Origin: a virus
Direction: 5' to 3' (one strand)
Length of the DNA: 30,678 nt
IMG/VR virus record: IMGVR_UViG_3300017713_000049
Coordinates: 1 to 30,678 of that record
In this document: positions 10,523 through 26,911 of the stretch, one piece after another
How positions within the stretch are numbered: position 1 is the first letter of the stretch
Layout: every line of letters starts with the position of its first letter
The notes under the pieces: generated by a model
What the model was told of the DNA's origin: nothing
What the model saw: the letters and a program-made list of their open reading frames with translations, nothing else
The model's database searches: none
Position numbers and translations under genes: made by a program

Positions 10523-10530
10523 TATATAAA
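10523..10530 (-). promoter_or_regulatory. TATA box of ERCC4 nuclease gene
   Basis: TTTATATA on the minus strand in the 34-nt gap after the primase gene. Its first T is 30 nt before the GTG start at 10500, the spacing expected if transcription begins at the start codon. A second TATA-like TTTATAG follows. The AAGTATGA box seen at other promoters of this window is absent. Confidence 0.6.
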
Positions 10531-10534
10531 AGGT

Positions 10535-11554
10535 TTAATCTCTTCTTGTGCCATCATCATTCCAACATGGGCCTGTACATAAATTTCTAGCCTGTAACCA
10601 ATGACAAGAAGCAGTATTCTCATAATCTAATATACTGTTTATATGAAATCTTGTAGTTTGTTTATTATAATCTCTCCAACCTAGTGTAGAATAAAAGTCT
10701 GCTATCTCATCACCTATTTTTGCTTTTTCTTGGTAAGTCATAGTAGAAGGGTTAGAGAACCAACGTAGGCTTTCTGCTAAGTGTTGGGTCAAGGCTACCC
10801 TCACATCATGTCTAGGGTTTTCTTGCCTCATAGCCTTGTCTAAACAAGGGGGAATTGGTACTTGTGCCATAGTGCCTATCTCACCATCAAAGGCTTGTAA
10901 AATAGGCATCTGTTTAGCAGGATTTTCTGCTATCCATTTGACAATATTAAAAGAAGAATCTCTTATCTCTCCTCTAAACGGGTCATTCTTGATAAGTTTT
11001 ATATCCGGTTTTTTAGGTATTATATATTCTTGGTGGTCATTCATAAATTCTTTAACGTCTATATTAACTGCCCACTTTTTTCTAGTCACATTATATGTGT
11101 CGGGAACTCTTGTAAGTTTTAAAGGATTACCTACACCATCAAGAGTTTTTAATCCTTTACCCATTTTTCTTTGGTATCTATCTACATGTTTTGATATAGC
11201 AGTACCTTTAACGGATTTGTCAAATATTTGGTGTACGTGAAATCCTCTACCTGTAGCCACTACCCTTATATCACCTTCTATTCTCTGTAGTAATGTATTT
11301 ACATCATCTTTAACGGTAAAAATATCTTCTTCTTCTGTCGTGTCAAAATCCCACCACGCTCTATCCATTACTACTGAATCTGTATCATACTTCCATGCTC
11401 TAGTAGGGTGTTTTCTCTCAAAAGAATACAAAGAAGTATAGATAGAAGCCTTACCATTAATACGATTAACATAATCGTCAAAGACTTGTCTACTATCACA
11501 TTGACGACGGCGAAGCCCTATCTCTCTTGGAAAATTAAGTAGCATGGTTATCAC
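10535..11554 (-). CDS. archaeo-eukaryotic primase, PriS-like core with PriL-like Fe-S tail
   Basis: Residues 67-71 read WWDFD, the two-Asp metal motif of archaeo-eukaryotic primases; TGRGFHVH (101-108) is the nucleotide-binding SGxGxH-type motif, and KLTRVPDTYN (146-155) is the RxP-type third motif. The C-terminal part has PPC (C237) and CHWLQARNLCTGPC (C317, C326, C330). This four-cysteine pattern is that of the 4Fe-4S domain of the large primase subunit PriL. The protein therefore appears to join catalytic and regulatory primase parts in 339 residues. It should make primers for the PolB encoded upstream. GTG at 11554 overlaps the stop of the preceding small zinc gene (GTGA); ATG at 11545 is the alternative start. 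Core assignment is firm; the PriL-like reading of the tail is inference from cysteine pattern. Confidence 0.85.
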   Translation of the reverse strand: MITMLLNFPREIGLRRRQCDSRQVFDDYVNRINGKASIYTSLYSFERKHPTRAWKYDTDSVVMDRAWWDFDTTEEEDIFTVKDDVNTLLQRIEGDIRVVATGRGFHVHQIFDKSVKGTAISKHVDRYQRKMGKGLKTLDGVGNPLKLTRVPDTYNVTRKKWAVNIDVKEFMNDHQEYIIPKKPDIKLIKNDPFRGEIRDSSFNIVKWIAENPAKQMPILQAFDGEIGTMAQVPIPPCLDKAMRQENPRHDVRVALTQHLAESLRWFSNPSTMTYQEKAKIGDEIADFYSTLGWRDYNKQTTRFHINSILDYENTASCHWLQARNLCTGPCWNDDGTRRD

Positions 11555-11715
11555 TCAGTTATATCTGCTACTTCTTGTTGGTGTCCGCAAGCACAACCGC
11601 CTACTAAAATTACTCTAGGCATATGACCTACTTGAGCATTTACTTGAACCATTTCTTCAAAGCCTTCCCAATCTTCTTCTTCTCCACAAGCATCACACAC
11701 GGCATAAACTTTCAT
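11551..11715 (-). CDS. small zinc-binding protein (54 aa)
   Basis: Short frame beginning MKVYAVCDACGEEEDWEGF and ending CACGHQQEVADITE. C7/C10 and C41/C43 with H45 form two knuckles of a probable zinc ribbon. The ATG overlaps the stop of the upstream small membrane gene (ATGA) and its own TGA overlaps the GTG of the primase gene, so it is tightly embedded in the operon; this arrangement is the main reason to treat it as real. Function unknown; it may be a nucleic-acid or protein adaptor of the replication cassette, but nothing in the sequence shows that directly. Confidence 0.72.
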   Translation of the reverse strand: MKVYAVCDACGEEEDWEGFEEMVQVNAQVGHMPRVILVGGCACGHQQEVADITE

Positions 11716-11855
11716 GCTTTCACCACTTTTAATTTAAATACTAAGAATGCCCCTAATAATAGTAATGTAATACTACCTATTTCAATTAAAGGGCTAAAAT
11801 TTAAATCTACCTGCATATTATCTGTAACTTTTTTTATATTTATTATTTGTATCAT
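11712..11855 (-). CDS. small single-pass membrane protein (47 aa)
   Basis: The frame starts with ATG 4 nt after the stop of the Cas4-like gene and ends in an ATGA overlap with the small zinc-protein gene, so it fills what would otherwise be an empty gap. The N-terminal half is polar (MIQIINIKKVTDNMQVDLNF). Residues about 23-40 are hydrophobic (LIEIGSITLLLLGAFLVF), followed by a Lys-rich end (KLKVVKA), consistent with one membrane span and a positive cytoplasmic tail. No family recognised. Short transmembrane proteins are common in tailed viruses, for example as lysis or superinfection factors, but no role can be assigned here. Confidence 0.6.
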   Translation of the reverse strand: MIQIINIKKVTDNMQVDLNFSPLIEIGSITLLLLGAFLVFKLKVVKA

Positions 11856-11859
11856 TATA

Positions 11860-12711
11860 TCACAACCATTTCTCAATACTACCCGTCATTTCGGACTCAC
11901 AATTTAAATGAAAGTCACACCACATAGGGCAGAAATATTCATTCCACACCATAGGGTAGTCTTGGAGTGTGAGTGATTCAATAGTATCATATAAAGATGC
12001 CTCAAAGGAATTAATAGAGCGAGTGGTTACAGGCTCTAAAAGAGCGTAGCCGTGAGTTTCACCTACCCACATTGTCTTCCCTCTTTTTTTATATTCATCA
12101 AGTAATTTATCATTATCTTTAATTTCATAATCCGGTGTTATATATAAGAAATGTGTAATTTCATCATAGCCTAATAATTTTAATATTCTAGCATAGTATA
12201 CTAATTCTTTTCTAGTTCTACCTAACTTGCCCATGTTCATGTTACCTGTTTTTAATTCTACTAAAATTAATCCGCCGTTAGGGTGTCTAATAACACCGTC
12301 AATCATACCTACCCATATAACAGGAGTCATACCGCTAGGCAAATCTAATTCTTCATATACTTGATGTTTTACTTCTGCTTCTATAACCTCTAAAGAACCT
12401 AAGTCTGCCGCTACCCTATGTAGTAAATTTGTCATAGCAACTGCACCTATATCTGTATCCATATTTTCTGCCGTTAAAAATCTTTGCATATCTTCGGGTT
12501 CACCTAAAATACCTGTTTCCATAGCACTATGTAATATAGTACCACGTATCATAGATTCAGTAGGTGGGGTAGAGGGAACATCTGCAACATATCTCCAATA
12601 AAATTGTCTAGGACACATTTTATATGTCATATAAGATGACTTAGAAACTCTAAGTATTTCGCCTTCCGGCTTATAAGAAGATTTACTAATTTGTTCTTTA
12701 GTGGCTATCAT
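11860..12711 (-). CDS. Cas4/RecB-like PD-(D/E)XK nuclease with Fe-S cysteines
   Basis: The protein (283 aa) opens with SKSSYMTYKMCPRQFYWRY, the N-terminal motif of Cas4/AddB-type nucleases. H61 lies in RGTILHSAM, D138 in WVGMIDGVI, and E152-x-K154 in LVELKTG; together these are the PD-(D/E)XK catalytic residues. RKELVYYARIL (168-178) corresponds to the QhXXY motif. C33 plus C261, C265 and C271 (FCPMWCDFHLNC) would bind a 4Fe-4S cluster as in Cas4. Such enzymes are ssDNA exonucleases; without cas1/cas2 or a CRISPR array in the window, a role in viral DNA replication or recombination is more likely than spacer acquisition. The ATG overlaps the stop of the upstream zinc-ribbon gene (ATGA). Confidence 0.88.
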   Translation of the reverse strand: MIATKEQISKSSYKPEGEILRVSKSSYMTYKMCPRQFYWRYVADVPSTPPTESMIRGTILHSAMETGILGEPEDMQRFLTAENMDTDIGAVAMTNLLHRVAADLGSLEVIEAEVKHQVYEELDLPSGMTPVIWVGMIDGVIRHPNGGLILVELKTGNMNMGKLGRTRKELVYYARILKLLGYDEITHFLYITPDYEIKDNDKLLDEYKKRGKTMWVGETHGYALLEPVTTRSINSFEASLYDTIESLTLQDYPMVWNEYFCPMWCDFHLNCESEMTGSIEKWL

Positions 12712-13022
12712 TCTTCCTCTCCGCTATCCCATTGGTCTATTGTAGTTTGCCCTTGTAGTAAATCAGTACCACATGAAGGACATACTTTATCTAAAGGTAC
12801 GGCTTTTAGTATAGGGCTTAAAATACGTTGAGAGCATTTAGGACAAGACTGTTCTTTTATCTGCCCATTCTCTTTTAGAATGCCAAACACTAAAGAATTT
12901 AATCTTCCTACATCTGATGTCATAGCATTAATCAATTGATTAATTACTCCTCTCATCTCATGTACATCTTTCTGTAATTGTTTTACTGTAGGTTTACCAC
13001 TTTGCGCTCTACTTCTACTCAT
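12708..13022 (-). CDS. zinc-ribbon protein with helical N-terminus
   Basis: A 104-residue protein. The first 50 residues are probably helical (QLQKDVHEMRGVINQLINAM). A zinc ribbon follows with CPKC (C60, C63) and CPSC (C81, C84), then an acidic tail. No close family recognised; the layout of coiled coil plus ribbon suggests a nucleic-acid or protein adaptor. It begins a transcription unit: a strong TATA box lies exactly 30 nt before the ATG, in the short gap after the polymerase gene, and no clear ribosome binding site is present. It is followed by the Cas4-like nuclease with an ATGA overlap, so the two are probably cotranslated. Confidence 0.78.
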   Translation of the reverse strand: MSRSRAQSGKPTVKQLQKDVHEMRGVINQLINAMTSDVGRLNSLVFGILKENGQIKEQSCPKCSQRILSPILKAVPLDKVCPSCGTDLLQGQTTIDQWDSGEEE

Positions 13023-13031
13023 AACTTTACA

Positions 13032-13052
13032 TCATACTTCTTAGGTTATAAA
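13032..13052 (-). promoter_or_regulatory. TATA box plus AAGTATGA box before zinc-ribbon gene
   Basis: Minus strand TTTATAACC, then AAGAAGTATGA, lying outside coding sequence between the polymerase stop and the ATG at 13022. First T to ATG is 30 nt. This copy is the cleanest evidence that the two-part motif is regulatory and not a coding coincidence. Confidence 0.7.
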
Positions 13053-13053
13053 C

Positions 13054-15270
13054 TTATAGCCAAGAGAGTCCGCCCAAGCCCCTCATAGAGTTTATCAAAG
13101 GTTGTGTTGACCAACCCATCAATTCATAATATGGTGTTACTTTTTTAATAACGAATCTTTCACATAGTATTTTGTAACCTATATTTACTATACCCGTTAT
13201 ATCTTCCGGTTCGTCAAATGCTACATACTTACCTTTATCGTCAAGAGTAACTTTAAAGAAAGAACCACTATGATAACCCTTACCTAGATTTTCGTTAGCC
13301 CATGCCGCACCTGCACTAGAACCGGATAAAACTTTGTAGTCACTTAAATTTCTATCTAATTTACCCTTCATACAAATACTGTTAATATCTACAGTACCAT
13401 TTACTATGCTCGTTATAATAGGTTTAAGTTTGTCGTTAACCGCTAATTCATTTTTACCATCTAATATCATCTGTATAGTATTTCCCATAACCTCTTTCAT
13501 AATAGGAGGCATACGTGATTGTTTCATTTCTATACCTTTGATATACATTTTTGGTTCGTGGAACTGACCATCAGTCCATGTAACATTTCCGGCGTATCTA
13601 TTCTTAGCCATCAAAACCATAGACGAACACCACTTCTCAAACTCAGTTTCAATAGGGTGCATTGTAGCGTTGATTGTGGCTATCAAATCCTCTCCGGCCT
13701 GTGGACTATCTATTACACAAAACACACTGTCTGTATGGCCGTAAAGCACCTTAGAACCGTTGTCTTCAGCACACTGTTTGAGCCTACCTAGAGTAGCCCT
13801 AGAAGTATAAGTAATTGAAGCCGCTACATCGGGATGATACAAGCCGTATTTTGCATCTCCCGCCACACCATACATAGATGCTACTAAAGACTTACAAGCG
13901 AACTGCATTGTATCCCATTTATCATAGTTACTACGGTCAGATTTCATAAGTTTTTTATATATATTCCTAGTTTCTGTCATGTAATCCATTTGTCTAACTA
14001 GAATACCTTTATCACCTTCTGAAAACTTAGTACCATTACCACAATCTTTACCATTTTTATCAAGAGTATCCCAAGATATATTGTATAGAGAAGCATTACT
14101 GTGATACATAGCCTTAATATCTAGGATACCTACGTTCTGATATACAGATGGTTCTACTTCCATAACTTCTGCCCCCATGTAAGGTTCGTACTCAAACTGT
14201 GGCTTAGTAGGTATTCTTAGATTTGTCTTAGGGTCTAGTAATACTAAGTTAGAAAACATCTTTGTAATAAATGGGGTAGAACGTATGTCACATTGTACAA
14301 TATGTTGTAGTGATGTGTAATACTCTAACGCATTTACTTTAGAGTCTAATTTAGGTAACAATCTTACGTCTTGTCTAGCGTAGTGTAAGTACAGTGGAGG
14401 GTCAGTAAGATAAGTGTCGTGTCCGTCGGGTAACTCAATCTTCTTTTCTCCTAAAACTTCATGTGCTACATCATCTAATTTGTAAGAAGGTAATTTACCA
14501 TTCTTCATTTCCCATATTTTAGAGAAGCCTATCATCAAATCTATACAATTTCTACCGACAATAGGTTGTTCCCAATCTTTGTAGGTATAATTTATTCTTC
14601 TATATGGACTCATAAGAGCAGGGTTAATATTACAAGCCCTACATCTTTCTATAATAGTTCTTATGTCAGCACCTACTACAAACCAACCCGTAATTATATC
14701 GGGGTCTTGTTTATTCATGTGACTTAAGAAATGCTCTAACATATCTTTTTCGTCGGGAAAGCCAATAGCAGGTGTTTCATAAGTGTAATCGCCGTATTTA
14801 TTAAACATTTTTATTTCTGTTAAAGTTTTGTCTACAAACCACACATATTCTTTACCCGTAAAAGAATCATTAACCACTATAATTCTCATCTTATTAGTAG
14901 CAGGACTCCATTCGCAATCAAGATACCAAATTCTATGCTTATAATTCTTGTAAGGTTCATGACCATTGTTTACTCTATCAACCAATACTCTATTAACATA
15001 AGGTATATTTGCTTCCCATGTAGGTATATGTGGGTTTTGATTCTTAAAATCATATACAAACCTAGGGTCTGATACTAGAATCTTAGTTAAGTCTTCTCCA
15101 TAAACACCTTTGTACCCACTTTCTTTACTAGAGGCAGAAATGTCTATAGCATCTTCATCTGTTATAAAAAAATAAGGGCTATAGTTAGTTAGTTTATCGG
15201 TCTTACGAACACCTTGCTCATCTCTATATCGTACATTAACTGTACGTCCTCTACCTTGAGTAACTATCAC
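13054..15270 (-). CDS. polB: family B DNA polymerase
   Basis: Compact 738-residue replicative polymerase with 3'-5' exonuclease. Exo I is WYLDCEW (D118, E120); Exo II is ITGWFVVGADI (D202); Exo III is YARQD (Y297, D301). Polymerase motif A is DIKAMYHS (D384) where DxxSLYPS is usual, motif B is K460 to SMYG (465-468), and motif C is YGHTDS (510-515) where YGDTDS is usual. The catalytic second Asp of motif C (D514) is kept. KGIEMKQ (578-584) fits the KxY-type template-contact region. It should act with the primase, clamp and loader encoded nearby. The start is GTG preceded by GAGG and lies just after the stop of the HTH gene. Family certain; no uracil-sensing N-terminal domain was recognised. 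Confidence 0.95.
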   Translation of the reverse strand: MIVTQGRGRTVNVRYRDEQGVRKTDKLTNYSPYFFITDEDAIDISASSKESGYKGVYGEDLTKILVSDPRFVYDFKNQNPHIPTWEANIPYVNRVLVDRVNNGHEPYKNYKHRIWYLDCEWSPATNKMRIIVVNDSFTGKEYVWFVDKTLTEIKMFNKYGDYTYETPAIGFPDEKDMLEHFLSHMNKQDPDIITGWFVVGADIRTIIERCRACNINPALMSPYRRINYTYKDWEQPIVGRNCIDLMIGFSKIWEMKNGKLPSYKLDDVAHEVLGEKKIELPDGHDTYLTDPPLYLHYARQDVRLLPKLDSKVNALEYYTSLQHIVQCDIRSTPFITKMFSNLVLLDPKTNLRIPTKPQFEYEPYMGAEVMEVEPSVYQNVGILDIKAMYHSNASLYNISWDTLDKNGKDCGNGTKFSEGDKGILVRQMDYMTETRNIYKKLMKSDRSNYDKWDTMQFACKSLVASMYGVAGDAKYGLYHPDVAASITYTSRATLGRLKQCAEDNGSKVLYGHTDSVFCVIDSPQAGEDLIATINATMHPIETEFEKWCSSMVLMAKNRYAGNVTWTDGQFHEPKMYIKGIEMKQSRMPPIMKEVMGNTIQMILDGKNELAVNDKLKPIITSIVNGTVDINSICMKGKLDRNLSDYKVLSGSSAGAAWANENLGKGYHSGSFFKVTLDDKGKYVAFDEPEDITGIVNIGYKILCERFVIKKVTPYYELMGWSTQPLINSMRGLGGLSWL

Positions 15271-15272
15271 AC

Positions 15273-15596: not shown

Positions 15597-15597
15597 T

Positions 15598-16434: not shown

Positions 16435-17392
16435 TCTTAGCACCTTCTGTTAGGAAAGGTAAGCCGAACCATTTTACTTTAGCATCTTTAACGCTTAAAA
16501 TAGTATGTGTACTACCTACATATTCCATATTACTACCTTTCATTTCTTCTATAGTAGCCTTAACTGCCCATTCACCATCTGCTAGAGATTTGTCACCCTT
16601 TACACCGGCGGCCATGTCAGCCTTCTTCATGTAGCGGGATAGGAATATCTGTTGAGAGAATCTACGCATAGTACCTTTCTCCCAATCCGGTCTTTCTCCA
16701 ACGGCCATAAGAACTTTCTTACCTGTACCGTCATCCATATATTGTTGTACTGCCTTCAAGTGGAAGGTGTTGAATATTTTAGAGACAGGTAGAGCATGAA
16801 GTCTATCAAGAACGTCACGATTTAGTCTGTTACGCTCTCTCCATTCTTTCTGATTAAATGAGTCATCTTCGTTCTCAATGATACCCTTTGCTAGTAGAGA
16901 CTGTCTCATAGCAAACTCACACCATTTAAGGAATGTAGAGCCACCATCAAAAATTATACCACCGTGTTGTTCCGGTTGTTCTGCTATATCTTCTGCTAGA
17001 AGATTGATAAACCACTTTGTCTTGTTGATAAGAGCCATGTGGTTTACAGAATTATCTTCATGATAGATAGAATCATCAGACTCATCTAGTAAAGGTATAA
17101 CTCTAATGTTATCCGCATTAGGGTATAAATATTCTACTGTAGCACCTGCTGAATTATCTATATCTAAGATAGTAATAGTTTTACCGTTATCTATTTCTGC
17201 TTCTAATAGAGAAAGAGCAAGACCTGTTTTACATGAGTTTTCATGTGCCACAAGAGCCATTCTATATTTCTGAGATGTAGTTTTCTTAGTATCTAAAAGC
17301 GACCTATAATAATCGCGGTCATATAATTGCGTCGGTGCTTTTGCTACTTCTTTTTTGGCTACTGTGTTGTTTGTTTGATTTCCCCAAGACAT
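16421..17392 (-). CDS. RecA/Sak4-like recombination ATPase with altered Walker A
   Basis: A 323-residue P-loop protein of the RecA/RadA superfamily, most like phage Sak4-type single-domain ATPases. Residues 46-61 (ALVAHENSCKTGLALS) sit where Walker A belongs. Both usual glycines are replaced (A49, C54), while K55 and T56 are retained. The Walker B strand is GGIIFDGG (144-151), and ITILDIDNSAG (73-83) follows as in this family. FNTFHLKAVQQYMDDGTGKK is a probable DNA-binding/sensor segment. Such proteins bind ssDNA and promote annealing or exchange. It stands first after GroEL under its own TATA box. No N-terminal helix-hairpin-helix domain is present, so it is not a full RadA. Confidence 0.72.
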   Translation of the reverse strand: MSWGNQTNNTVAKKEVAKAPTQLYDRDYYRSLLDTKKTTSQKYRMALVAHENSCKTGLALSLLEAEIDNGKTITILDIDNSAGATVEYLYPNADNIRVIPLLDESDDSIYHEDNSVNHMALINKTKWFINLLAEDIAEQPEQHGGIIFDGGSTFLKWCEFAMRQSLLAKGIIENEDDSFNQKEWRERNRLNRDVLDRLHALPVSKIFNTFHLKAVQQYMDDGTGKKVLMAVGERPDWEKGTMRRFSQQIFLSRYMKKADMAAGVKGDKSLADGEWAVKATIEEMKGSNMEYVGSTHTILSVKDAKVKWFGLPFLTEGAKNDNN

Positions 17393-17401: not shown

Positions 17402-17422
17402 TCATACTTCTTTGCTTATAAA
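17402..17422 (-). promoter_or_regulatory. TATA box plus AAGTATGA box before RecA-like gene
   Basis: Minus strand TTTATAAGC then AAGAAGTATGA. First T is 30 nt before ATG 17392. The motif lies within the last codons of groEL (encoding FISKEV and the stop), so on its own it could be coding constraint; the matching non-coding copy at 13032-13052 argues otherwise. GAGGG just before the ATG could also serve as ribosome binding site on longer transcripts. Confidence 0.6.
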
Positions 17423-18907
17423 CTTGTCAGCAGGTAGACCTACTAACGCATCTGATAATAATACTAATACCGCTATAGATACCGCACTTCTTATAGAATT
17501 TATAGTGACATCAACAGGGTCATAGACTCCTTTTTCTTTCATGTCAAAACCTAAGTCAGCATCTTCATCGTATTGTATTTTAGGATACTGCATTATCCCT
17601 GCATTATCTAGTAATGTTTCTTCGGGCATAACAAATGCTTCTTTTATAATCTCTAAAGAACTTTGTTCTCCAAAATGTCTAAGTAACACACCACCACCCG
17701 CAATTACTCCGTTTCTTTGTGCGGCCCTAACTGCGTTTACTGCATCATCTATTCTTTCTTTACGCTCTCGTAATTCTATTTCTGTATTAGCACCTACTTT
17801 AATGGATGCAACACCGTCAGTTAATCGTGCAATCCTACGGGTAAGTGTCTGCTTTTCCCAATTATTGTCACTATCATCTAATTGTTGATATAATTTATCA
17901 ATATGTTTTTCATCCCTAGTATCTTTTTCGGTAAGCAACATAGTAGTATCTTTAGTACAATCTGCTTTTAGTACAAAACCTAATTGATTTTCTTTAACCT
18001 CTAAAATATTATCACCTAAAATCTTAGAAAACATATGTCCACCTGTCACTGATTGTATATCCTGTAACCAATCTTGTTGTCCTTGACCCATACCTGCCGT
18101 CTTTACAATACAGGCACTTATCTTTCCTTGTACTACATTAATAAGTATATTAGGTAACATAGCAGGATTATAGTCAGAGCAGAAAATCATTAGTCCTCTA
18201 CCCGCTTTCATAGAAAGTTCAAGAGCAGGTACTAAACTTTCAAAGTTATCTAACCTGTCACTTGTTAATAAAACATTAGAGTTTACTAAATTCTGTGTAA
18301 AGTAAGGGCTAACTGCACCCGACTGTACTTCAAGACCGGATTCTATATTATATATAGTATCGAAACCACTACCGGCCTCTACTGCTATTGCACCTTCCGA
18401 ACCTACTTTGTCCATAACTTCTGCTATCAGATTACCTAAGTCTTCATCGTTGTTAGATGCTATGATAGCAACATTCTTTAACATATCTTTGTCATCAGTA
18501 ACAGGAATTGCTTCTTCTAATAATTTATCTATGATAATTTCAGCCTCTTCTTTTATAGCGTTAGTTAAACCTACTGCATCTTCTCCTCTATGGATAGCAT
18601 CATACCCTATATTACATAGGGCTTGCGCTAATAATGTAGCAGTAGTAGTACCATCACCGGACTTATGTTGTGCTTGTGATGCCACTTCCTTAATTAAATC
18701 TATACCCATTTGTACATAGGGGTCGGGGTCATTTACTGCTTTAGCAATAGTAACTCCATCATTTAATATAAGGGGGAAAGTATCTTCTCTTTGTATAATT
18801 ACAGTTCGGGCGTTTGGCCCTAGAGTTCCTTTAACCGCATTGGCTACTTTGTTTACTCCTTGTAGTAATTTGTTACTTGCTTCTTTACCTGTTATTAATG
18901 TTTTCAT
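17402..18907 (-). CDS. groEL: group I chaperonin GroEL
   Basis: The 501 residues align along the whole length with bacterial-type GroEL. KLLQGVNKVANAVKGTLGPN (13-32) and NDGVTIAKAV (49-58; D50 matches E. coli D52) are ATP-site elements, as is GDGTTTATLL (84-93; D85 matches D87). RIDDAVNAVRAAQRNGVIAG (385-404) ends in the GGG turn; D388 matches the hydrolytic D398. The apical domain is recognisable (LQDIQSVTGG). The Gly-Gly-Met tail is missing, as is some other length, relative to about 545 residues. It is not a thermosome (group II), the usual archaeal chaperonin. TAA of groES touches its ATG, with GGTGAT before it. Probable role: folding of virion or replication proteins with the encoded cochaperonin. 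Confidence 0.95.
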   Translation of the reverse strand: MKTLITGKEASNKLLQGVNKVANAVKGTLGPNARTVIIQREDTFPLILNDGVTIAKAVNDPDPYVQMGIDLIKEVASQAQHKSGDGTTTATLLAQALCNIGYDAIHRGEDAVGLTNAIKEEAEIIIDKLLEEAIPVTDDKDMLKNVAIIASNNDEDLGNLIAEVMDKVGSEGAIAVEAGSGFDTIYNIESGLEVQSGAVSPYFTQNLVNSNVLLTSDRLDNFESLVPALELSMKAGRGLMIFCSDYNPAMLPNILINVVQGKISACIVKTAGMGQGQQDWLQDIQSVTGGHMFSKILGDNILEVKENQLGFVLKADCTKDTTMLLTEKDTRDEKHIDKLYQQLDDSDNNWEKQTLTRRIARLTDGVASIKVGANTEIELRERKERIDDAVNAVRAAQRNGVIAGGGVLLRHFGEQSSLEIIKEAFVMPEETLLDNAGIMQYPKIQYDEDADLGFDMKEKGVYDPVDVTINSIRSAVSIAVLVLLSDALVGLPADKFISKEV

Positions 18908-19120: not shown

Positions 19121-20316
19121 TAATCCCACCCTTCTGCGTCTACAGTTTCCATAGCCTCTACTTCGTCAAAAGGATACCAACCGTTTACAGATAATTTTTG
19201 TTCATCTGTATCTCTTGTTCTCCATGTTTGACCGACTAATAATATCTTAGTACCTACTGCAAAGTCTACTCTACTACCATGTTCTGATGGAACGTATACT
19301 TCTACTACAGGTGCTACTGATGCTATATCTAAATCAGCACACACAAGAGTATAACCACCGTTATCTCTAGGGTCTATATGAATTACTTCACCTATTACAC
19401 CTACTATTCTATCCCACCAACCGGCTTGGCCGTTGAATTGGTCATAGTAATCACGTAGAGCATCTAATGATGACAACATATTTTCTGAACCTAACAGAGA
19501 AGGTACTAACCCTGTACCGTCAGCCATGATAGGTGCGGCTGAAAAGATTTCTGCTTTACTAGCATCTGCGGTATAGTTAGCCATATCTGCTTTAACGTAG
19601 CATTTCTTACCGTCTTTACCGACACGTAGAGCCATAGTCAAAGGGGTGAATGTTGGGTATTGCATATCTGCCGCTTTACCTTGTGCGGTTACAGTCATCA
19701 TCTTTACTTCATCACTAGAACCTTCTACACGACCTAAGAACATAGATGTTCTTTCTTGTTCGTTTTGTGGTCTTGCATTACCGAATTTAAAGTTTCTATC
19801 TCCACTAGGGAAAGTAGGGTTGTTACTATCCCATACACAGTAGAAGTAAGAGTCACCATCAAGACGCATAGCGTTCTTGTCTAGTTCATTTACATTAGTA
19901 GTATCTTCACCGAAGAAATCTTCTCTAGCATATCTAGTATAAGTTCCATCACCATTATCATTGTATAGTACAATCTTTCCATTGTCTACAAATTGTTGAC
20001 GTACTTCTTCTGACGCACTAATCATTTGACTCTTCATTTTATTGTATAGTATCTTACCCCATTCTTTAGGGCGTGGTACTGATATAAACATACCTTCTAA
20101 TTTAGAAGCACCGGAACGTAGTAGTCTTGAGTTTTCATTTTTAATTTTACTACCGGCTACCTTTAATGCTAGGGCATAACAATCTTGTTCTGATTTACCT
20201 GCATTTTTCCATGCCTCTCCTTGAGCCAACAGGATTTCATCTGTCCTACTCTTGAGAGTGTTTATATCTATATTCAGCGTATTAGCAGTTCTTTGTATTA
20301 TTTTTTCATCTATCAT
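19120..20316 (-). CDS. putative OB-fold ssDNA-binding protein (RPA-like)
   Basis: A 398-residue protein from ATG 20316, which has GGTGATTGAA directly before it; an in-frame extension to 20388 runs back through the promoter and is rejected. The N-terminus (residues 1-60) is helical. KLEGMFISVPRPKEWGKILY leads into an Asp/Asn-rich middle. The C-terminal third (IVGVIGEVIHIDPRDNGGYT, VEVYVPSEHGSRVDFAVGTK, ILLVGQTW) has the strand pattern of an OB fold. With polymerase, clamp, loader and primase nearby and no other ssDNA-binding candidate, an RPA-like role is the best guess, by context and fold pattern and not by a diagnostic motif. It is translationally linked to groES. Confidence 0.5.
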   Translation of the reverse strand: MIDEKIIQRTANTLNIDINTLKSRTDEILLAQGEAWKNAGKSEQDCYALALKVAGSKIKNENSRLLRSGASKLEGMFISVPRPKEWGKILYNKMKSQMISASEEVRQQFVDNGKIVLYNDNGDGTYTRYAREDFFGEDTTNVNELDKNAMRLDGDSYFYCVWDSNNPTFPSGDRNFKFGNARPQNEQERTSMFLGRVEGSSDEVKMMTVTAQGKAADMQYPTFTPLTMALRVGKDGKKCYVKADMANYTADASKAEIFSAAPIMADGTGLVPSLLGSENMLSSLDALRDYYDQFNGQAGWWDRIVGVIGEVIHIDPRDNGGYTLVCADLDIASVAPVVEVYVPSEHGSRVDFAVGTKILLVGQTWRTRDTDEQKLSVNGWYPFDEVEAMETVDAEGWD

Positions 20317-20349: not shown

Positions 20350-20370
20350 TCTTACTTCTTTGCTTATAAA
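20350..20370 (-). promoter_or_regulatory. TATA box plus AAGTAAGA box before putative ssDNA-binding gene
   Basis: Minus strand TTTATAAGC, then AAAGAAGTAAGA, in the 59-nt gap after the clamp-loader stop. First T is 54 nt before the ATG at 20316, so a start 30 nt downstream would leave a leader of about 24 nt carrying GGTGA. Confidence 0.7.
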
Positions 20371-20375: not shown

Positions 20376-21248
20376 TTACCTTATACACATTAAAACAAAA
20401 TTAGAGAGTATAATATCTTCGTCAACACCCATAATAAAATCCCTTTCGGATGTGACGGCGGCTTCTATAACCTTTAATTTACTTGGGGGTTTAGCATTTG
20501 ACTCCATAGCAAAACGGAATACTGCTCTAATACTCTCCCTTTTGTTATCTTTGTCTAGTAGTTTTAATGACTCTTCAAAATCTTTTTCTCTAAAACAAAG
20601 TGTTAAGAATTGTTGGACATCAAACTTCTCGTTCTCTAATGAATGTACAAAGGAATGTTTGTCTTGAGAATTATGATATGCCTGTAATGCGTTGATTGCA
20701 TTTCGTAAATCTCCTCTATGGTTATTAATTATTAAGGCTAAATGATTAGGTGTTATCTCTACGCCTTCTTTACCCGCTATAGTAATTAATCTTTGTTTCA
20801 TATGTTCTTCACTAATAGGGTTGAACTTAAGAACTCTACATCTTGATTGTAACCATATACTTACTTTAGACAAATCATTACAAGTTAGAATAAACCAACC
20901 GTGTGCGTTTTCTATCACACCTTTTAGTGCTGATTGTGCGGCAGGTGTTAATTGGTCTGCCTCGTCTAATAAAAATATTTGCTTCCAATTACCTGTTCTT
21001 GACATAGGCATAAGTTCTTCTTCTACAAACTCTATACCTCTAGTCTTTTTACTACTAGCGTTAAAGATATGTAAGGTACTACCATGTCTCTTTGCTAGAG
21101 CATGAGCCAAACTTGTTTTACCTGTACCTGCTTGTGGACTATAGAATACCATATGTTGCATCCCATTACCTATAGCATTTATAATATCATCTTGACCAAC
21201 TATATCATCTATAGATGGTCTATGTTTTAATGCCCATACTTTACTCAT
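20376..21248 (-). CDS. RFC-like clamp loader AAA+ ATPase
   Basis: The protein (290 aa) starts like replication factor C small subunits (WALKHRPSIDDIVGQ; RP-x7-GQ motif). Walker A is PQAGTGKT (38-45); Walker B is FLLDEADQL (92-100). Sensor 1 is LTCND (N124). The SRC motif with the trans-acting arginine is at 135-137, and sensor 2 is GDLRNAINALQ (179-189). The C-terminal collar is short. It should load the sliding clamp encoded about 4 kb downstream. No separate large subunit is visible in the window. The start has GAGG at 8 nt and lies next to the stop of the upstream basic-protein gene. Confidence 0.92.
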   Translation of the reverse strand: MSKVWALKHRPSIDDIVGQDDIINAIGNGMQHMVFYSPQAGTGKTSLAHALAKRHGSTLHIFNASSKKTRGIEFVEEELMPMSRTGNWKQIFLLDEADQLTPAAQSALKGVIENAHGWFILTCNDLSKVSIWLQSRCRVLKFNPISEEHMKQRLITIAGKEGVEITPNHLALIINNHRGDLRNAINALQAYHNSQDKHSFVHSLENEKFDVQQFLTLCFREKDFEESLKLLDKDNKRESIRAVFRFAMESNAKPPSKLKVIEAAVTSERDFIMGVDEDIILSNFVLMCIR

Positions 21249-21249: not shown

Positions 21250-21471
21250 TTAATTCCTCATAGGTGTGAACGTTTGGCTTATCCGACTTGTTAATGCTCT
21301 ATGTATTATCAGAACGGTTCTGCATCTATGACTCTTGGCTTGTTTATCAGAACGTGAGACTCTTAATCTTCGTGTCTTTACTCCTTCCTTCATCAACGGC
21401 TCTACATCTATCTGTGCATATCGGTTACGGTTTGGGGATAGCACCTGTTTATCTATCCTCGCCTCGCTCAC
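21250..21471 (-). CDS. small basic protein, unknown
   Basis: A 73-residue Arg/Lys-rich protein (GVKTRRLRVSRSDKQAK) with a GTG start. No family recognised, and the frame alone would not be convincing. Two things support it: a TATA box with the AAGTA box lies exactly 30 nt before this GTG, matching the other promoters, and the stop is adjacent to the clamp-loader ATG. If real it is the first gene of the clamp-loader transcript and would be translated from a leaderless message. The high positive charge suggests nucleic-acid binding. Alternatively the GTG region is only a leader for the loader gene. Confidence 0.55.
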   Translation of the reverse strand: MSEARIDKQVLSPNRNRYAQIDVEPLMKEGVKTRRLRVSRSDKQAKSHRCRTVLIIHRALTSRISQTFTPMRN

Positions 21472-21480
21472 AAATTAAAG

Positions 21481-21501
21481 GCTTACTTCTAAGAATATAA
21501 A
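21481..21501 (-). promoter_or_regulatory. TATA box plus AAGTAAG box upstream of basic protein and clamp loader
   Basis: Minus strand TTTATATTC followed by TTAGAAGTAAGC, within the 43-nt gap. First T is 30 nt before GTG 21471. Confidence 0.65.
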
Positions 21502-21514: not shown

Positions 21515-21865
21515 CTACGCAAGCGAATCAAAGGTCTTCTCGATTCTCAAAGATTCTAATTGTTTGTACATTTCTGCTAGTTCTGCTTTAAAATCAACGG
21601 GATTAGAATTATCTGTTTCTAATGCCATCAAAACACCTAAGCCCATACCTCTAACTAAATCTAAACTCCATGCTCTTGACATCATTAATTCGGGATTAGT
21701 TACAAAATCATCTATAATATCTATGTCAGTTAAAAAATCAATACAATCTTTAACAAGGTGGCTTTGTCTAATATTCTCGTCCGTCAGTATATCTGCTAAT
21801 AGTGGGTCTGTTCCGTATGCTTGCATCTGTTGTAGTAAATGGAACATAAGTCTGTCTGTATCCAT
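21515..21865 (-). CDS. hypothetical acidic helical protein
   Basis: 116 residues from ATG 21865 (an in-frame TTG at 21874 is less likely). Rich in Asp, Leu and Met, with probable helices throughout (DRLMFHLLQQMQAYG, DCIDFLTDIDIIDDFV, FKAELAEMYKQLESLRI). No cysteines, membrane span or known motif seen. It follows its own promoter with a 54-nt TATA-to-ATG distance and precedes the basic protein and clamp loader. Function unknown; acidic helical proteins of this size are often protein-interaction or DNA-mimic factors, but that is speculation. Confidence 0.65.
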   Translation of the reverse strand: MDTDRLMFHLLQQMQAYGTDPLLADILTDENIRQSHLVKDCIDFLTDIDIIDDFVTNPELMMSRAWSLDLVRGMGLGVLMALETDNSNPVDFKAELAEMYKQLESLRIEKTFDSLA

Positions 21866-21898
21866 AGTAACCAATACTCTTAGCGTCTTAAATTACTT

Positions 21899-21919
21899 TC
21901 GTACTTATTCGCTTATTAA
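21899..21919 (-). promoter_or_regulatory. TATA-like box plus AAGTACGA box
   Basis: Minus strand TTAATAAGC then GAATAAGTACGA, overlapping the stop codon of the upstream zinc protein gene. First T is 54 nt before ATG 21865, the same spacing as at 20350-20370. Confidence 0.6.
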
Positions 21920-22323
21920 GATGTTGATTGTTCTCTTATACAATGTAGACAGACATCACTATTAGGAGGGAAGACTCTAGTTCTACTACAGGAACATTTT
22001 TGAGATTTTGCTTTCTCACTAGGAGTCATAACTGTCAAAGAACGTGTGTAGGTAATATCATCTTTATTTTTAATTAACTCTCTATCTATGTCATAAATTA
22101 AGTGCATAGCCTTAGTTCCTACGGCATTTTCTACTGCTTCTGAACCCGTCGCTACTATCTGTGGATTCTTAGACATAAGGGCCGCTAAACTATGTGGGCT
22201 AGGAACAGTACGAACAGTTTTACGTTGTGCTAACATATCTGCCATTCCTTCTTTTGTCATCTGTCCACACTCAAAAAGTATCTCTACAATGATACGTCGA
22301 ATGCGGCGGTTATTCGCGCTCAT
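21916..22323 (-). CDS. winged-helix protein with C-terminal zinc knuckle
   Basis: A 135-residue protein. The N-terminal part is a probable winged helix: RIRRIIVEILFECGQMTKEG then MADMLAQRKTVRTVPSPHSL, with AALMSKNPQIVATG as recognition end and wing. The last 30 residues carry C110, C112, C125 and C128 (CSCSRTRVFPPNSDVCLHC), a likely zinc site. It is one of several small winged-helix proteins in the window and may regulate viral transcription. ATG at 22323 is also the expected leaderless position relative to a weak TATA-like element 30 nt upstream. Confidence 0.7.
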   Translation of the reverse strand: MSANNRRIRRIIVEILFECGQMTKEGMADMLAQRKTVRTVPSPHSLAALMSKNPQIVATGSEAVENAVGTKAMHLIYDIDRELIKNKDDITYTRSLTVMTPSEKAKSQKCSCSRTRVFPPNSDVCLHCIREQSTS

Positions 22324-22344
22324 ATATCTTGGTAATATATAAAA

Positions 22345-22353
22345 GTATATGAA
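22345..22353 (-). promoter_or_regulatory. weak TATA-like element
   Basis: Minus strand TTCATATAC with its first T 30 nt before ATG 22323, in the 38-nt gap between genes. A second AT-rich tract TTTTATATATT lies closer, at about 20 nt. The AAGTA box is not present, so this is a weak call. Confidence 0.35.
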
Positions 22354-22361
22354 GGGTTTTA

Positions 22362-23209: not shown

Positions 23210-23243
23210 GTAACCACTCCAAATTTTTTGCCATGATTTTTAA

Positions 23244-23260
23244 CATACTTACTTTATACA
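23244..23260 (-). promoter_or_regulatory. TATA box before 221-aa gene
   Basis: Minus strand TGTATAAAG then TAAGTATG, overlapping the stop of the upstream gene. First T is 51 nt before ATG 23209; a GGAG ribosome binding site lies in the predicted leader. The second box is closer to TATA than at the other sites. Confidence 0.5.
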
Positions 23261-23508
23261 GTATAGAAAGGGTCATGCTCATAAATATAATCACATATTC
23301 GTTTATATTGAGTAGCAGTTAAACCCCAAGCATCACGCACCGCTTTAGGGGTAATACTATAACCGTTATATTCCCACAAGACACCTCTATCTCCAATAGT
23401 ACCCATCAAACCATCATCTATCATGGCTTGTATAAGAATAGGCATATCATCTTTATAGATAGGTCTAGCAAAAAGACTTACGTTTTTACCTGTGCGCCAT
23501 TTCTTCAT
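23254..23508 (-). CDS. hypothetical protein, 84 aa
   Basis: Small protein with a compact mixed fold. The N-terminal half is KKWRTGKNVSLFARPIYKDD; the C-terminal half YSITPKAVRDAWGLTATQYK followed by RICDYIYEHDPF resembles a helical HTH-like unit. No family recognised. Its ATG overlaps the stop of the zinc/HTH protein gene upstream (ATGA), so both are likely made together, and it may function with that DNA-binding protein. Confidence 0.65.
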   Translation of the reverse strand: MKKWRTGKNVSLFARPIYKDDMPILIQAMIDDGLMGTIGDRGVLWEYNGYSITPKAVRDAWGLTATQYKRICDYIYEHDPFYTV

Positions 23509-24122
23509 TCTATAACCTCATAATCTACTGTGACAGGTGCTTTAAGTGCCGCCATCCTAAACTCTATTTGGTCTAGTAATTGCGGATTAGTACCAAGAAC
23601 ATCTACAAGTATATTTGACATATGATTCATTTGTGATTGTGCTAATAATAATTGAGAATCTACACCTATCTCTTTCTTCAATTGACCTACTAACTTTAGG
23701 CTTGAATTTGCTTGACCGATTAACTTAGCCGCATCAGCAACGAAATCGGAAGTGATACCGCCGTGTGCTTCCTTTCTTTCTTCTAACTCATCTAGGTACG
23801 ATGCTATTCTATTCACAATATCTTCTGCCGCATCTAACGTATTTATAGATTGTTTTCTTGCTTCCTCTACGTGTTCTGCTTCTTCGGGGTCAAACTCTAC
23901 GTGACTCTCCATGTGCTTCATTACTGTACCTTCCGACCAACTATATTTACTCTCTAAATAATCGGGAGTAGTATCACCGTTATTTAATTCTATTTCAAAT
24001 TCTTTCTTCTTTTTGTGGTCGCATAAAGCACACCCGCCATCAAGAACCCATCTAAGAACTTCCATAGCAAACATATCGTTTTCATTTCTTAATCTTTGTT
24101 GTATTTCAAATCTAGTTTTCAT
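23505..24122 (-). CDS. zinc-knuckle/HTH protein, possible small terminase subunit
   Basis: A 205-residue protein. C31 and C34 (CALC) and H70 and H74 (HMESH) flank a short HTH-like stretch (IELNNGDTTPDYLESKYSWS). The CxxC...HxxxH pattern around an HTH is typical of phage DNA-binding proteins related to small terminase subunits. The rest is helical: EEAEHVEEARKQSINTLDAA, later SSLKLVGQLKKEI and LLLAQSQMNHMSNILVDVLG, suited to oligomerisation. A role in DNA recognition for packaging is a guess; no large terminase is visible in the window. A regulator is the alternative. The start overlaps the preceding gene by 11 nt. Confidence 0.6.
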   Translation of the reverse strand: MKTRFEIQQRLRNENDMFAMEVLRWVLDGGCALCDHKKKKEFEIELNNGDTTPDYLESKYSWSEGTVMKHMESHVEFDPEEAEHVEEARKQSINTLDAAEDIVNRIASYLDELEERKEAHGGITSDFVADAAKLIGQANSSLKLVGQLKKEIGVDSQLLLAQSQMNHMSNILVDVLGTNPQLLDQIEFRMAALKAPVTVDYEVIE

Positions 24123-24390
24123 TTTTTAAACCCCACTCTACTCTTTGTTTTTTAACGCTTATAATATCGGGATGGTCTGCCAACCATCTTGATAATTCTC
24201 TTTGTGTAGGACACATTCTTGATTGACATAATAGTTTATCTTGAGCCGCACTACCATATGAACCAATCATGTAGGCTTCTGCTATAATAACATTACTTGT
24301 GACAAACGGAAGTTTATCATCTCTCCTATTCTGTAAGTATTTTCTTACTGCGGGCCACCAAGCCTTTGTCGTTTTTGATTTTCTACCCAT
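24112..24390 (-). CDS. small winged-helix-like protein
   Basis: 92 residues. The C-terminal half, MCPTQRELSRWLADHPDIIS followed by VKKQRVEWGLKN, fits a winged-helix recognition helix and wing: a helix ending in RWLADHP, then a strand with the closing Trp. This resembles the wings of other small regulators in the window. The N-terminal half (WWPAVRKYLQNRRDDKLPFV) is basic. The ATG follows GGTGA and lies next to the stop of the MCM-like gene. DNA binding is likely; target unknown. Confidence 0.6.
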   Translation of the reverse strand: MGRKSKTTKAWWPAVRKYLQNRRDDKLPFVTSNVIIAEAYMIGSYGSAAQDKLLCQSRMCPTQRELSRWLADHPDIISVKKQRVEWGLKNEN

Positions 24391-25695
24391 TTACTCACCC
24401 ATAGTATTTGCGTTTGGCCCTATCCTACAAAGCATACCTTTTCTACCACGCCTAGAAGTCTCCGGTTCATACTCACAATACCAAGACTGTCCTTCTAAGT
24501 TTTCTACTACCCATCTTTTAGCACTTTGATAATCTCCCATAGTAATCATACGGGAAATCTCCTTGAGTAATTCTGACTTAGGTAAGTCTTTCATCCAAAA
24601 GGTAGTTCTGATAAGTTCTGAATCTGCATCCATAACTCTACGACGTTGTTCTAGTGACATATTTAGTATAGTCTCTAAAGTATTGTCAAGAGTAATCATT
24701 AGTGGTTGCCCTCCTCTATATGTTGGCAACATCATATGATAGCCTATCGCTAATCTTCTGAACAAGTCAGCCTCAAAAGAACGTATGTCCGGCCTATTAA
24801 TCCAATCACCAATATCATCGGCAAAAATAATTCCTGTAGGCGGTTCTGAAACTGCTAACATCATTCTCTCTCGTATCCATTGTTTAATCTCTATACTTAA
24901 TGTGGCTAGAGAAGTTCTTTCTTCTACCGTCATATTAGATTGTTTGTGTTGTGCTTGTTTGTAAAGCAATTCTTTTTGCGGTGACATTTCTATATCTATA
25001 ATAAAGAATCTACGGTCAAGACCGGAATCTAACTCAAACCTAGCAGGTTGTGTACCTGCCCATACTGTATATCTAGTAGTGTAACTAACCCATCCTGCTC
25101 TCAAGGCTTTCTGTACACGGCCATTATCTAAGGAAGTAAGTAACTGATTTTTCATATCCATACTGTGGTCTTTTTTAGACGCATCAGACATAGAAGAAAA
25201 CTCTTCAAATCCTAAGAAGCCACCACACAAATCTCTAGCCAATGGTCGGCCCATAATATTACCTTCTTCGTCTACACTACCAAACATACCTGCTTCTGTA
25301 ACGGAGTTAGGCCCAAGCATTGTTCTCATACCTTGCCCTAAGTCAGCATTCTGACTATGTAGTAATCCCGTACCTTCCGCTAAGAACATCATAATCAATA
25401 CAGATTTACCCGACCCTTTAGGGCCACGAAGCATTAGATGAATTCGTGTGTCGGGTAACTGTGACATAGGAGTATAGAAGGGCATATTGTTATGTCTCAA
25501 AGCACAATTGGTAATCAAGAAATCATTTTCTTCATCTACTAAAGGGCTATCGGGGTCAAAGTCACACCTAGAACATTTATTAAGAGCATTAAAGATATGC
25601 GCTCCAATACTACAGATAAATATAGGTACTTTATCCTCTACATCTACATAGTGGTTTCTTCTAGCAAAGTCTTTTATGTTGTCAAATATATTCAT
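24391..25695 (-). CDS. MCM-like AAA+ ATPase, probable replicative helicase
   Basis: The 434-residue protein carries Walker A GPKGSGKS (91-98), a Walker B strand GGFLGFEEFSSMS (158-170), and LLTSLDNGRVQKALRAGW. The last resembles the MCM insert hairpin that follows Walker B. WAGTQP (212-217) is at the sensor-1 position, and LDSGLDRRFF (222-231) contains the arginine-finger candidates R228/R229. C41, C44, C64 and H68 could bind zinc, as in MCM N-terminal domains, but the N-terminal part is far shorter than in cellular MCM. A helicase driving the encoded replisome is the natural reading. A packaging or other AAA+ role cannot be excluded. The ATG overlaps the PAC2-like gene (ATGA) after GGAGG. 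Confidence 0.68.
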   Translation of the reverse strand: MNIFDNIKDFARRNHYVDVEDKVPIFICSIGAHIFNALNKCSRCDFDPDSPLVDEENDFLITNCALRHNNMPFYTPMSQLPDTRIHLMLRGPKGSGKSVLIMMFLAEGTGLLHSQNADLGQGMRTMLGPNSVTEAGMFGSVDEEGNIMGRPLARDLCGGFLGFEEFSSMSDASKKDHSMDMKNQLLTSLDNGRVQKALRAGWVSYTTRYTVWAGTQPARFELDSGLDRRFFIIDIEMSPQKELLYKQAQHKQSNMTVEERTSLATLSIEIKQWIRERMMLAVSEPPTGIIFADDIGDWINRPDIRSFEADLFRRLAIGYHMMLPTYRGGQPLMITLDNTLETILNMSLEQRRRVMDADSELIRTTFWMKDLPKSELLKEISRMITMGDYQSAKRWVVENLEGQSWYCEYEPETSRRGRKGMLCRIGPNANTMGE

Positions 25696-26501
25696 ATGTC
25701 AAGTCCTCCAAAGTTTTTAATGTTGTCCATATCTACAAGTTTTTCCGTTATACTTTGTAGTGCAGATTCATCACACGACAAGTCATATGTTAAAAGTATA
25801 TGGTTTAAAAGTGCGTCTGCCGTGTCCATATCTACTGATTCTCCACTAGCACTTCCTAATAATACTTCTGATAATTTTAGGGGGGAAGAAGTAAAATTAC
25901 AGAAAACATCACACCATATCCAAACATTCGGTGCTAAAATATAATCTAACTCTAAACTATCTTCTTGATATTTTCCACTATGAGTAGTAACTTCTTCTTT
26001 CATTGTAGACCAATTGTAACTTACTACCTCTCCGTGTGCAACTTTACTATACTCTTTAAAGTCTTTATGCAAAACAAACAGATTTGTAGTCATATATGAC
26101 ATTTTATTTACACCTAATTCATTAAGAGTCATTACGATGTCTCTAACCACAGGATAAGTGTGCATCCACACATCTTTATTTGCATACCTATCTTGTGTTA
26201 ACTCAATAGGATAAGCAGTAGGTATTCTCAAGATAAAAAATCTTTTACCGTCATTGTTTCTTGTTTCGTATAATCTATACTCCGGCCAAAAAGGTACGGG
26301 TATAAAATTAACAGATGTAGTATTTAGATGCTTAGAATATATAGAAGCAACAGGCGGCCTTTCTCCTATTAATGCTTTACCCGCTATAGTAGTGGCCGCA
26401 CCATGTTCTTCTTGATGATATACTATTAAATGAGTCTGCTCTTTTTTTGGTCTTCTTCCGTTAAGCCACACTATATCTATATCCAATTTTTGCTCTATCA
26501 C
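25692..26501 (-). CDS. PAC2-like protein (proteasome-assembly-chaperone fold), tentative
   Basis: A 269-residue protein whose order of elements resembles the archaeal PAC2 family. A small-residue turn and helix (HGAATTIAGKALIGERPPVA) leads to SIYSKHL. A proline-rich strand (NFIPVPFWPEYRLYE) is followed by FFILRIPTAYPIE, and then by a helix before a conserved-looking GVNKMSYMTTN strand. In cells PAC2 proteins associate with proteasomes. No diagnostic motif exists for this family, so the call is by pattern only. The C-terminal 100 residues are acidic and unrecognised. The GTG start overlaps the winged-helix gene stop (GTGA) and has GGGGGGAG before it. Confidence 0.4.
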   Translation of the reverse strand: MIEQKLDIDIVWLNGRRPKKEQTHLIVYHQEEHGAATTIAGKALIGERPPVASIYSKHLNTTSVNFIPVPFWPEYRLYETRNNDGKRFFILRIPTAYPIELTQDRYANKDVWMHTYPVVRDIVMTLNELGVNKMSYMTTNLFVLHKDFKEYSKVAHGEVVSYNWSTMKEEVTTHSGKYQEDSLELDYILAPNVWIWCDVFCNFTSSPLKLSEVLLGSASGESVDMDTADALLNHILLTYDLSCDESALQSITEKLVDMDNIKNFGGLDI

Positions 26502-26881
26502 AATACTCCCCCCTGCTTTACATATTCTTCTCTTGCGAATTTCGGTACAGATTTATATGTAGAAATATTATGACTGTAAGATAACTTTTTAGCAATCACT
26601 TGTTTCAAATCCGCACATCTATAGACACAACACGTAGAAGAACTACCGGAAGGTGTTATACTTCTTACAGTACCTATTTTAATAAAGTACGGCGATTTTC
26701 TAAGTATTTGAGATACTTGTTGAATACTCCATGTCTGTTTAGTTTTTCTGCACCCCGTTGTAACCTTTCTATTGTTCAAATACCACATTATGTCATGTGT
26801 ACTTGCTTCTCTTTTTTCATGTTGGTCTAAATATCTGTATGATAATTCTACACACTGTTTACTTCCACTACCTCTTGCCAT
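26498..26881 (-). CDS. winged-helix regulator, first gene of the replication block
   Basis: 127 residues with a clear winged helix. STHDIMWYLNNRKVTTG is helices 1-2; WSIQQVSQILRKSPYFIKIG is the recognition helix and wing start; CCVYRCADL is the closing strand. It is the promoter-proximal gene of the leftward replication arm, just inside the AT-rich gap, a place suited to an autoregulator or early switch. ATG 26881 has GAGGTGA upstream and a TATA-like element exactly 30 nt away. Regulation of the operon is inference from position. Confidence 0.72.
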   Translation of the reverse strand: MARGSGSKQCVELSYRYLDQHEKREASTHDIMWYLNNRKVTTGCRKTKQTWSIQQVSQILRKSPYFIKIGTVRSITPSGSSSTCCVYRCADLKQVIAKKLSYSHNISTYKSVPKFAREEYVKQGGVL

Positions 26882-26890
26882 ACTATCACC

Positions 26891-26911
26891 TCATACTTGT
26901 TCGCTTTTAAT
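26891..26911 (-). promoter_or_regulatory. TATA-like box plus AAGTATGA box before winged-helix gene
   Basis: Minus strand ATTAAAAGC followed by GAACAAGTATGA; first base of the box is 30 nt before ATG 26881. The TATA part is less canonical than elsewhere but the second box is intact. GAGGTGA follows, so the message might be leaderless or have a very short leader with ribosome binding site. Confidence 0.6.

Follow-up and report, generated by a model that had tools for sequence, protein, structure and literature searches.

The virus record IMGVR_UViG_3300017713_000049 of IMG/VR (positions 1 to 30,678, one strand; the whole stretch of 30,678 nucleotides is here called the window) carries on its minus strand eight TATA-like boxes at fixed distances before start codons, and in six of them the box is followed at one and the same distance by the pentamer AAGTA. 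We consider it probable that these are archaeal-type promoters, most of them giving leaderless mRNAs, with a second element fixed after the TATA box at genes of the replication module. In this virus and its relatives the TATA box is locked to the start codon and the element to the TATA box, unrelated genes of one genome share the element, and its consensus word is specific to the lineage.

TATA boxes and a second element in the window

The original prediction had placed a TATA box of consensus TTTATAAGC 30 nt before the start codons at 10500, 13022, 17392, 21471, 22323 and 26881 and 54 nt before those at 20316 and 21865; all eight were found where it had put them. When mismatches to TTTATAAGC were counted (up to two being accepted as a match), there were none at 17392 and 20316, one at 13022 and 21865, two at 21471 and 26881 and three at 10500 and 22323. 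The box at 10500 is thus as weak as that at 22323, although the prediction had called only the latter weak. As a general consensus TTTATAAGC did not hold up: the boxes at 10500 and 22323 are weaker and stand without the second element, and the pooled relatives and the window together contain only seven copies (four distinct when flanks are considered).

At exactly −30 a match to TTTATAAGC precedes 4 of the 35 listed minus-strand starts (33 open reading frames (ORFs), a second candidate start being listed for two) vs. a mean of 0.085 for random starts, which bears out the original observation. None of 20,000 random draws reached four matches, nor did any of 3,000 random sets when the best of all distances from 12 to 89 nt was allowed.

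Counted from the first T of the box, AAGTA stands at positions 14–18 in the promoters of 13022, 17392, 20316, 21471, 21865 and 26881. None of 5,000 null draws, made from 84 other TATA-like sites, gave six of eight at this fixed place. At 20316 and 21865 the ATG is 24 nt further off and the spacing of AAGTA to the box is unchanged; the element therefore goes with the TATA box rather than with the codon. Of the two-part promoter that had been proposed, the TATA placement stood, and its actual second part is AAGTA at a fixed distance from the box, which the prediction had not contained.

The six promoters, all on the minus strand, comprise TATA box and second element. They are TTTATAACCTAAGAAGTA (13035..13052, first T at 13052) before a gene for 104 amino acids starting at 13022, TTTATAAGCAAAGAAGTA (17405..17422) before a gene for 323 amino acids starting at 17392, TTTATAAGCAAAGAAGTA again (20353..20370) before the gene starting at 20316 (ATG, 54 nt) or 20325 (GTG, 45 nt), TTTATATTCTTAGAAGTA (21484..21501) before an ORF of 73 amino acids starting at 21471, TTAATAAGCGAATAAGTA (21902..21919) before the gene starting at 21865 (ATG, 54 nt) or 21874 (TTG, 45 nt), and ATTAAAAGCGAACAAGTA (26894..26911) before a gene for 127 amino acids starting at 26881. 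In leave-one-out scans of the two strands their ranks over all positions are 5, 1, 3, 7, 6 and 6, respectively; under the full matrix their scores run from 18.6 to 24.4, and the next best position scores 13.0. The related record G020 has counterparts of all six, with AAGTC in place of AAGTA in one, at a DNA identity of 84–90%. The two minus-strand sites without AAGTA are the TATA-like stretch TTTATATAGGC (10520..10530) before the ERCC4-type nuclease gene starting at 10500 and the weak TATA-like word TTCATATAC (22345..22353) before the gene starting at 22323.

The distance lock in related viruses

A scan with the family B DNA polymerase (PolB) yielded 79 loci, and longer stretches were fetched for 24 records. 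The relatives set thus assembled comprised 103 stretches (1.78 Mb including overlaps) with 4,917 candidate starts from a custom ORF caller. TTTATAA with at most one mismatch was found 29, 30 and 31 nt before starts in 58, 80 and 27 distinct upstream regions, respectively, compared with a background mean of 11.6 (standard deviation 4.2, maximum 21) at distances outside 28–32 nt. After removal of redundancy, and for starts with an intergenic gap of at least 25 nt, the peak was 34, 47 and 15 vs. 6.5. At operon-internal starts (gap below 10 nt, non-redundant) it was weak (5, 6 and 4 vs. 2.5). The GAGGTGAT-like signal is stronger at such operon-internal starts. In the related genomes the box thus shows a sharp peak at 29–31 nt.

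Archaeal TATA boxes lie about 28 nt before the transcription start site (PMC8553660, excerpt). As the distance from box to codon varies by only about one base, it is best explained by a transcription start at the codon; the genes are probably leaderless, with mRNAs that begin on the codon or a few bases from it. The leaderless mRNAs that had been predicted are therefore well supported, if only by position. Upstream of the box, where a purine-rich B recognition element (BRE) would be expected, there is some enrichment that varies by clade and module.

A second, leadered class with the box 46–51 nt before the start was considered because of a slight rise at these distances (21, 19, 18, 14, 21 and 15). 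It shrank to 9, 12, 8, 8, 12 and 10 vs. a mean of 6.5 once redundancy was removed, and the class is not claimed.

Start codons and Shine-Dalgarno sites

For the ATGs at 20316 and 21865 the distances of 54 nt are correct. As each of the genes could also start in frame at a codon 45 nt from its box (GTG 20325 and TTG 21874), the equality of the two distances may mean little; the GTG and the TTG may be the true starts, in which case the leaders could be about 15 rather than 24 nt long. Leaders of 24 nt, as originally predicted, are thus possible, with the start codons uncertain. In G003 the orthologue of the 20316 promoter (TTTATAACCGTAATAGTAT, at 41953) has in-frame ATGs 42 and 51 nt from the box; since this box, too, is more than 30 nt away from the ATGs, the leadered arrangement seems to be conserved. 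The clade F homologues of the 20316 gene have a GTG at 30–31 nt, three codons before the ATG. BLAST pairs residue 2 of the window protein with residue 4 of the clade F proteins, and the GTGs are therefore alike in place, not strictly matched.

Behind AAGTA the promoters of 17392 and 26881 contain GAGG or GAGGTGAT. From such Shine-Dalgarno-like sites it had been argued that the mRNA could start somewhat upstream of the codon, which is not required, as the sites may serve mRNAs read through from the preceding gene. In a weak test of read-through, Shine-Dalgarno sites in TATA genes amounted to 42% of 88 vs. 32% of 56; at operon-internal starts they amounted to 56% of 818 and in shuffled sequences to 12–15%. 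For the TATA genes these numbers are suggestive of read-through only.

The element in other lineages

Clades were set by PolB identity, not by a tree, and logos were anchored solely on the TATA box at −29 to −31. The logo of the 26 replication-strand promoters from clades B and F was TTTATAAGCGTGAnAG. A matrix from clade F found 21 sites (8 distinct), all 21 of them 29–31 nt before a start, and none with reversed columns. Clades D, H and I have different words after the box, and other lineages carry, for example, CGTGA or GTAATAGTA at the place of the element. Almost no signal followed the box in 106 control TATA-like sites at 40–65 nt or when the relatives were pooled on exact TTTATAA at any position; from the latter it follows that anchoring on start codons and splitting by clade are needed.

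Words were shared by unrelated genes of one genome beyond chance in six of eight records. For words of four and five letters none of 2,000 draws reached the observed sharing in the window, G016 and G026, and the P values, uncorrected for 16 tests, were 0.004 and 0.0005 in G019, 0.02 and 0.0035 in G013 and 0.036 and 0.0025 in G003. Over positions 8–20 promoters of different families in the same genome were identical at 0.464 of positions, the value for unrelated pairs from different clades being 0.334 (0 of 2,000 permutations; 0 of 1,000 in a rerun). The genome-wide sharing of the element is thus shown.

Concerted change of the element between lineages was also considered, pair-weighted identity being higher within a genome than between orthologous promoters of different clades (0.464 vs. 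0.397). Because one family supplies most of the pairs, the excess was lost under equal weighting and the claim was dropped; concerted change as against common descent is not proven.

Replication and structural promoters

The structural-strand promoters of clades B–F (17 sequences) show an A-rich stretch and then approximately TTnATAAnnCA; 59% of them have C at position 10 and 71% A at position 11. The genes behind them include those for a portal-like protein and for an unnamed protein of 645 residues. A leave-one-family-out classifier separated replication from structural promoters with an area under the curve (AUC) of 0.89 (18 vs. 9 families; 0 of 300 permutations). The 27 families, some of which may be chance TATA matches, came from clades B, D and F, with A, C, E, G, H and I left out; clade H contributed no structural-strand promoter to the set and clade I four.

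A PHROG DNA-repair-family exonuclease encoded on the PolB strand (L117:15534-16988 and L143:15908-17374) scores with the structural class.

Proposed mechanism and alternatives

In the mechanism that we propose, the TATA box would recruit TBP and TFB of the host, and transcription would begin on the start codon or no more than a few bases from it. The second element, at positions 8–18 from the first T and thus at about −23 to −13 from the presumed transcription start, is fixed in orientation and spacing and has in this lineage the core AAGTA at 14–18. It would be recognized in trans by a factor of the virus or by a particular TFB of the host, and this reader would switch the gene set on together.

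Several points weigh against this mechanism. AAGTA is missing from two of the eight sites (10500 and 22323), and the loose pattern TWTATAN6GAAGTA with two mismatches was not clearly above its reversed control in the window (32 vs. 27). The transcription start sites have been placed from the position of the box, and many of the records are related, so that the counts are of non-independent events. The clade F scan is partly circular because the matrix came from such promoters. Sharing within the genome was not significant in G010 and G012 (P 0.10–0.32, four families each), and in G006 and G019, for example, the identity over positions 8–20 was not raised (0.308 and 0.323). With equal weighting, promoters of the same genome (0.449, 13 genomes) differed little from orthologous ones (0.438, 6 families). 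The difference between replication and structural promoters resides more on the upstream side, which alone gave an AUC of 0.86, than in positions 8–18 (0.73, P 0.053) or in the TATA box (0.68, P 0.067). Finally, the element was compared among virus records only.

The loose pattern was also run over 30 records; most gave no clear excess over the reversed control, and it was discarded as too permissive.

That TATA-like words occur before these codons by chance in DNA of approximately 35% G+C might be thought, since TTTATAAGC-like words are no more frequent than expected (183 in the window vs. 212.5 at up to two mismatches). Only their position is special, and the positional peaks in the window and in the relatives refute chance, to which we assign practically no probability. 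Very improbable, too, is that the second element is a ribosome-binding region with AAGTATGAGGTGAT as Shine-Dalgarno context. GAGG or GAGGTGAT stands next to it at 17392 and 26881, and G is common at about −8 in the TATA genes of the relatives, but AAGTA is present at 13022 and 21471, although these lack a clear Shine-Dalgarno site, and at 20316 and 21865 the distance of AAGTA to the box is kept although the ATG is much further off. These two 54-nt cases contradict the ribosome-binding reading.

Of more weight is the possibility that the sequence after the box is nothing but the preference of TBP and TFB of the respective host lineage within the Poseidoniales, the presumed hosts (see below). 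It would explain that the element varies by virus clade, as expected if each clade had its own host lineage, and leaderless genes behind a TATA box are commonplace in archaea (PMC4983044, excerpt). We regard such a host grammar as conceivable but less likely than not. A different pattern in the structural-strand promoters of these viruses speaks against it, though not decisively, because a host may own several TFBs. Somewhat unlikely in our view is that the element serves as the operator of a repressor or activator that the virus encodes outside the initiation machinery, as has been proposed for early genes of Sulfolobus viruses. Its fixed place beside the core promoter, its genome-specific sequence and its occurrence at unrelated genes would fit, and there is a precedent (PMC11065993, excerpt). 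On the other hand, inspection by eye shows no inverted repeat in AGAAGTA or CGTGA (the promoters were not searched for repeats), and the protein that would bind the element is hypothetical. Overall, archaeal-type promoters of mostly leaderless genes, with a second element after the TATA box that is read in trans, remain the explanation that we favor.

The 22323 protein as a candidate reader

The gene at 21916..22323 (minus strand) encodes a protein of 135 amino acids, predicted from alignment, model and fold matches to consist of a winged helix and a C-terminal stretch with four cysteines in pairs. It is conserved in these viruses (26 sequences aligned) and has a distinct promoter of its own; three orthologues in clade F share a different one, CTTATAAACAC...GTTATC. 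The model shows the winged helix followed by the four-cysteine segment with a mean predicted local distance difference test score (pLDDT) of 93.5. The top Foldseek match was human TFIIE (E-value 3.4e-4), but with a template modeling (TM) score of 0.36 and a root-mean-square deviation (rmsd) of 15.9; archaeal TFE-alpha (6xjf) followed at rank 18 (E-value 0.059). VIA-align ranked other winged helices first, and at their head stood 2od5, a protein of an uncultured marine organism (Z 11.3, rmsd 4.2 over 86 residues). A comparison with PDB sequences gave no match better than an E-value of 0.14, and a Pfam scan none better than 0.0055 in any of the 26 family members. The model suggests a DNA- or polymerase-binding factor, and the protein is a possible regulator and candidate reader of the element. 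The putative recognition helix of the protein (PSPxSLSALxSKN) changes little between clades that have different elements, and this greater conservation counts against the protein as the reader.

For one magrovirus member a TFB gene is labeled in a figure legend (PMC10768690/PMC12999244). Among 50 partial records of the viruses studied here, PF00382 was found in none (4 of 14 control genomes) and PF08271 in two, both times partial and below the cut-off (11 of 14 controls). That magrovirus-like viruses encode an initiation factor of their own, possibly the 22323 protein or a diverged TFB, which reads the lineage-specific element downstream of TATA and steers the host RNA polymerase to the replication module, while the structural genes use another class of core promoter, is put forward as a speculation that we think improbable. 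If true, the virus-encoded reader would amount to a sigma-like promoter code in an archaeal virus.

Gene content and affiliation

In the window minus-strand modules are opposed to plus-strand ORFs. The minus strand encodes, as found by searches, PolB (13054-15270), a GroEL-type chaperonin (17402-18907), an RFC-like clamp loader (20376-21248) and a PD-(D/E)XK nuclease (11860-12711), and an ERCC4-domain nuclease (9775-10500; Pfam ERCC4/HHH). The plus strand carries an ORF of 591 codons (11-1786) matching tape measure families and, adjoining it, one of 2,662 codons (1796-9784) without a clear PHROG match (best E-value 0.0065). The sign of the GC skew flips near ~9780, where the blocks of plus- and minus-strand genes converge.

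Magrovirales are tailed viruses tied to Poseidoniales (PMC10768690, PMC12999244; also PMC5332604, excerpt). Of their traits the window has PolB, the clamp loader, the chaperonin and the opposite direction of the replication and structural modules. Gene content and opposed modules thus fit the order Magrovirales; we call the virus magrovirus-like on these grounds, and its host is presumably a member of the Poseidoniales. When PolB was compared with named phage records, the top matches listed were haloviruses at ~23–25% identity, and no named magrovirus record was among the best 20 of the 892 records matched. A PolB search of genome contigs gave one match (24%), in a Nanohalarchaeota assembly.

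Comparison with known systems

With the Magrovirales as described (PMC10768690, PMC12999244) the virus shares PolB, the clamp loader, the GroEL-type chaperonin and the opposed replication and structural modules. These texts do not mention promoters, which are described here. A literature search, whose incomplete coverage proves no absence, found no description of magrovirus transcription signals and no paper joining "magrovirus" with "promoter" or "Marine Group II" with "virus" and "TATA box". A marine data set with start sites of Marine Group II has been published (PMC5069720). A lineage-specific promoter code would aid the correct calling of starts and the grouping of virus genes by transcription class in metatranscriptomes, and it makes the redirection of a host polymerase by an archaeal virus testable in vitro.

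The leaderless TATA/BRE promoters of archaea such as Haloferax volcanii (PMC4983044, excerpt) have in common with the promoters described here the TATA box about 28–30 nt before the start codon and a transcription start presumably at the codon itself or only a few bases away from it. They differ in that here an extra, lineage-specific element follows the box and that the promoters belong to an uncultured tailed virus.

Virus-specific sequences beside the TATA box are already known from Sulfolobus viruses. In the rudiviruses SIRV1 and SIRV2 a GTC motif downstream of TATA (Kessler et al., 2004, as cited in an excerpt of PMC5569661) is present in most promoter regions and was proposed to be virus specific. 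Here, too, a short motif downstream of TATA is common to unrelated genes of one virus (not significantly so in two of eight records). Virus class, host and motif are different, however, the motif varies by lineage, and replication and structural modules differ. The early regulatory sequences of archaeal viruses treated in PMC11065993 (excerpt) likewise lie around TATA/BRE and are common to unrelated genes, with flanks that vary between viruses. They served to find early, likely anti-defense genes of rudiviruses, lipothrixviruses and fuselloviruses, and the passages on them do not mention magroviruses; here, by contrast, the elements mark genes of the replication module. What is new is such a system in oceanic magrovirus-like viruses, with an element that is fixed in position, varies by lineage and belongs to promoters differing between the replication and the structural module.

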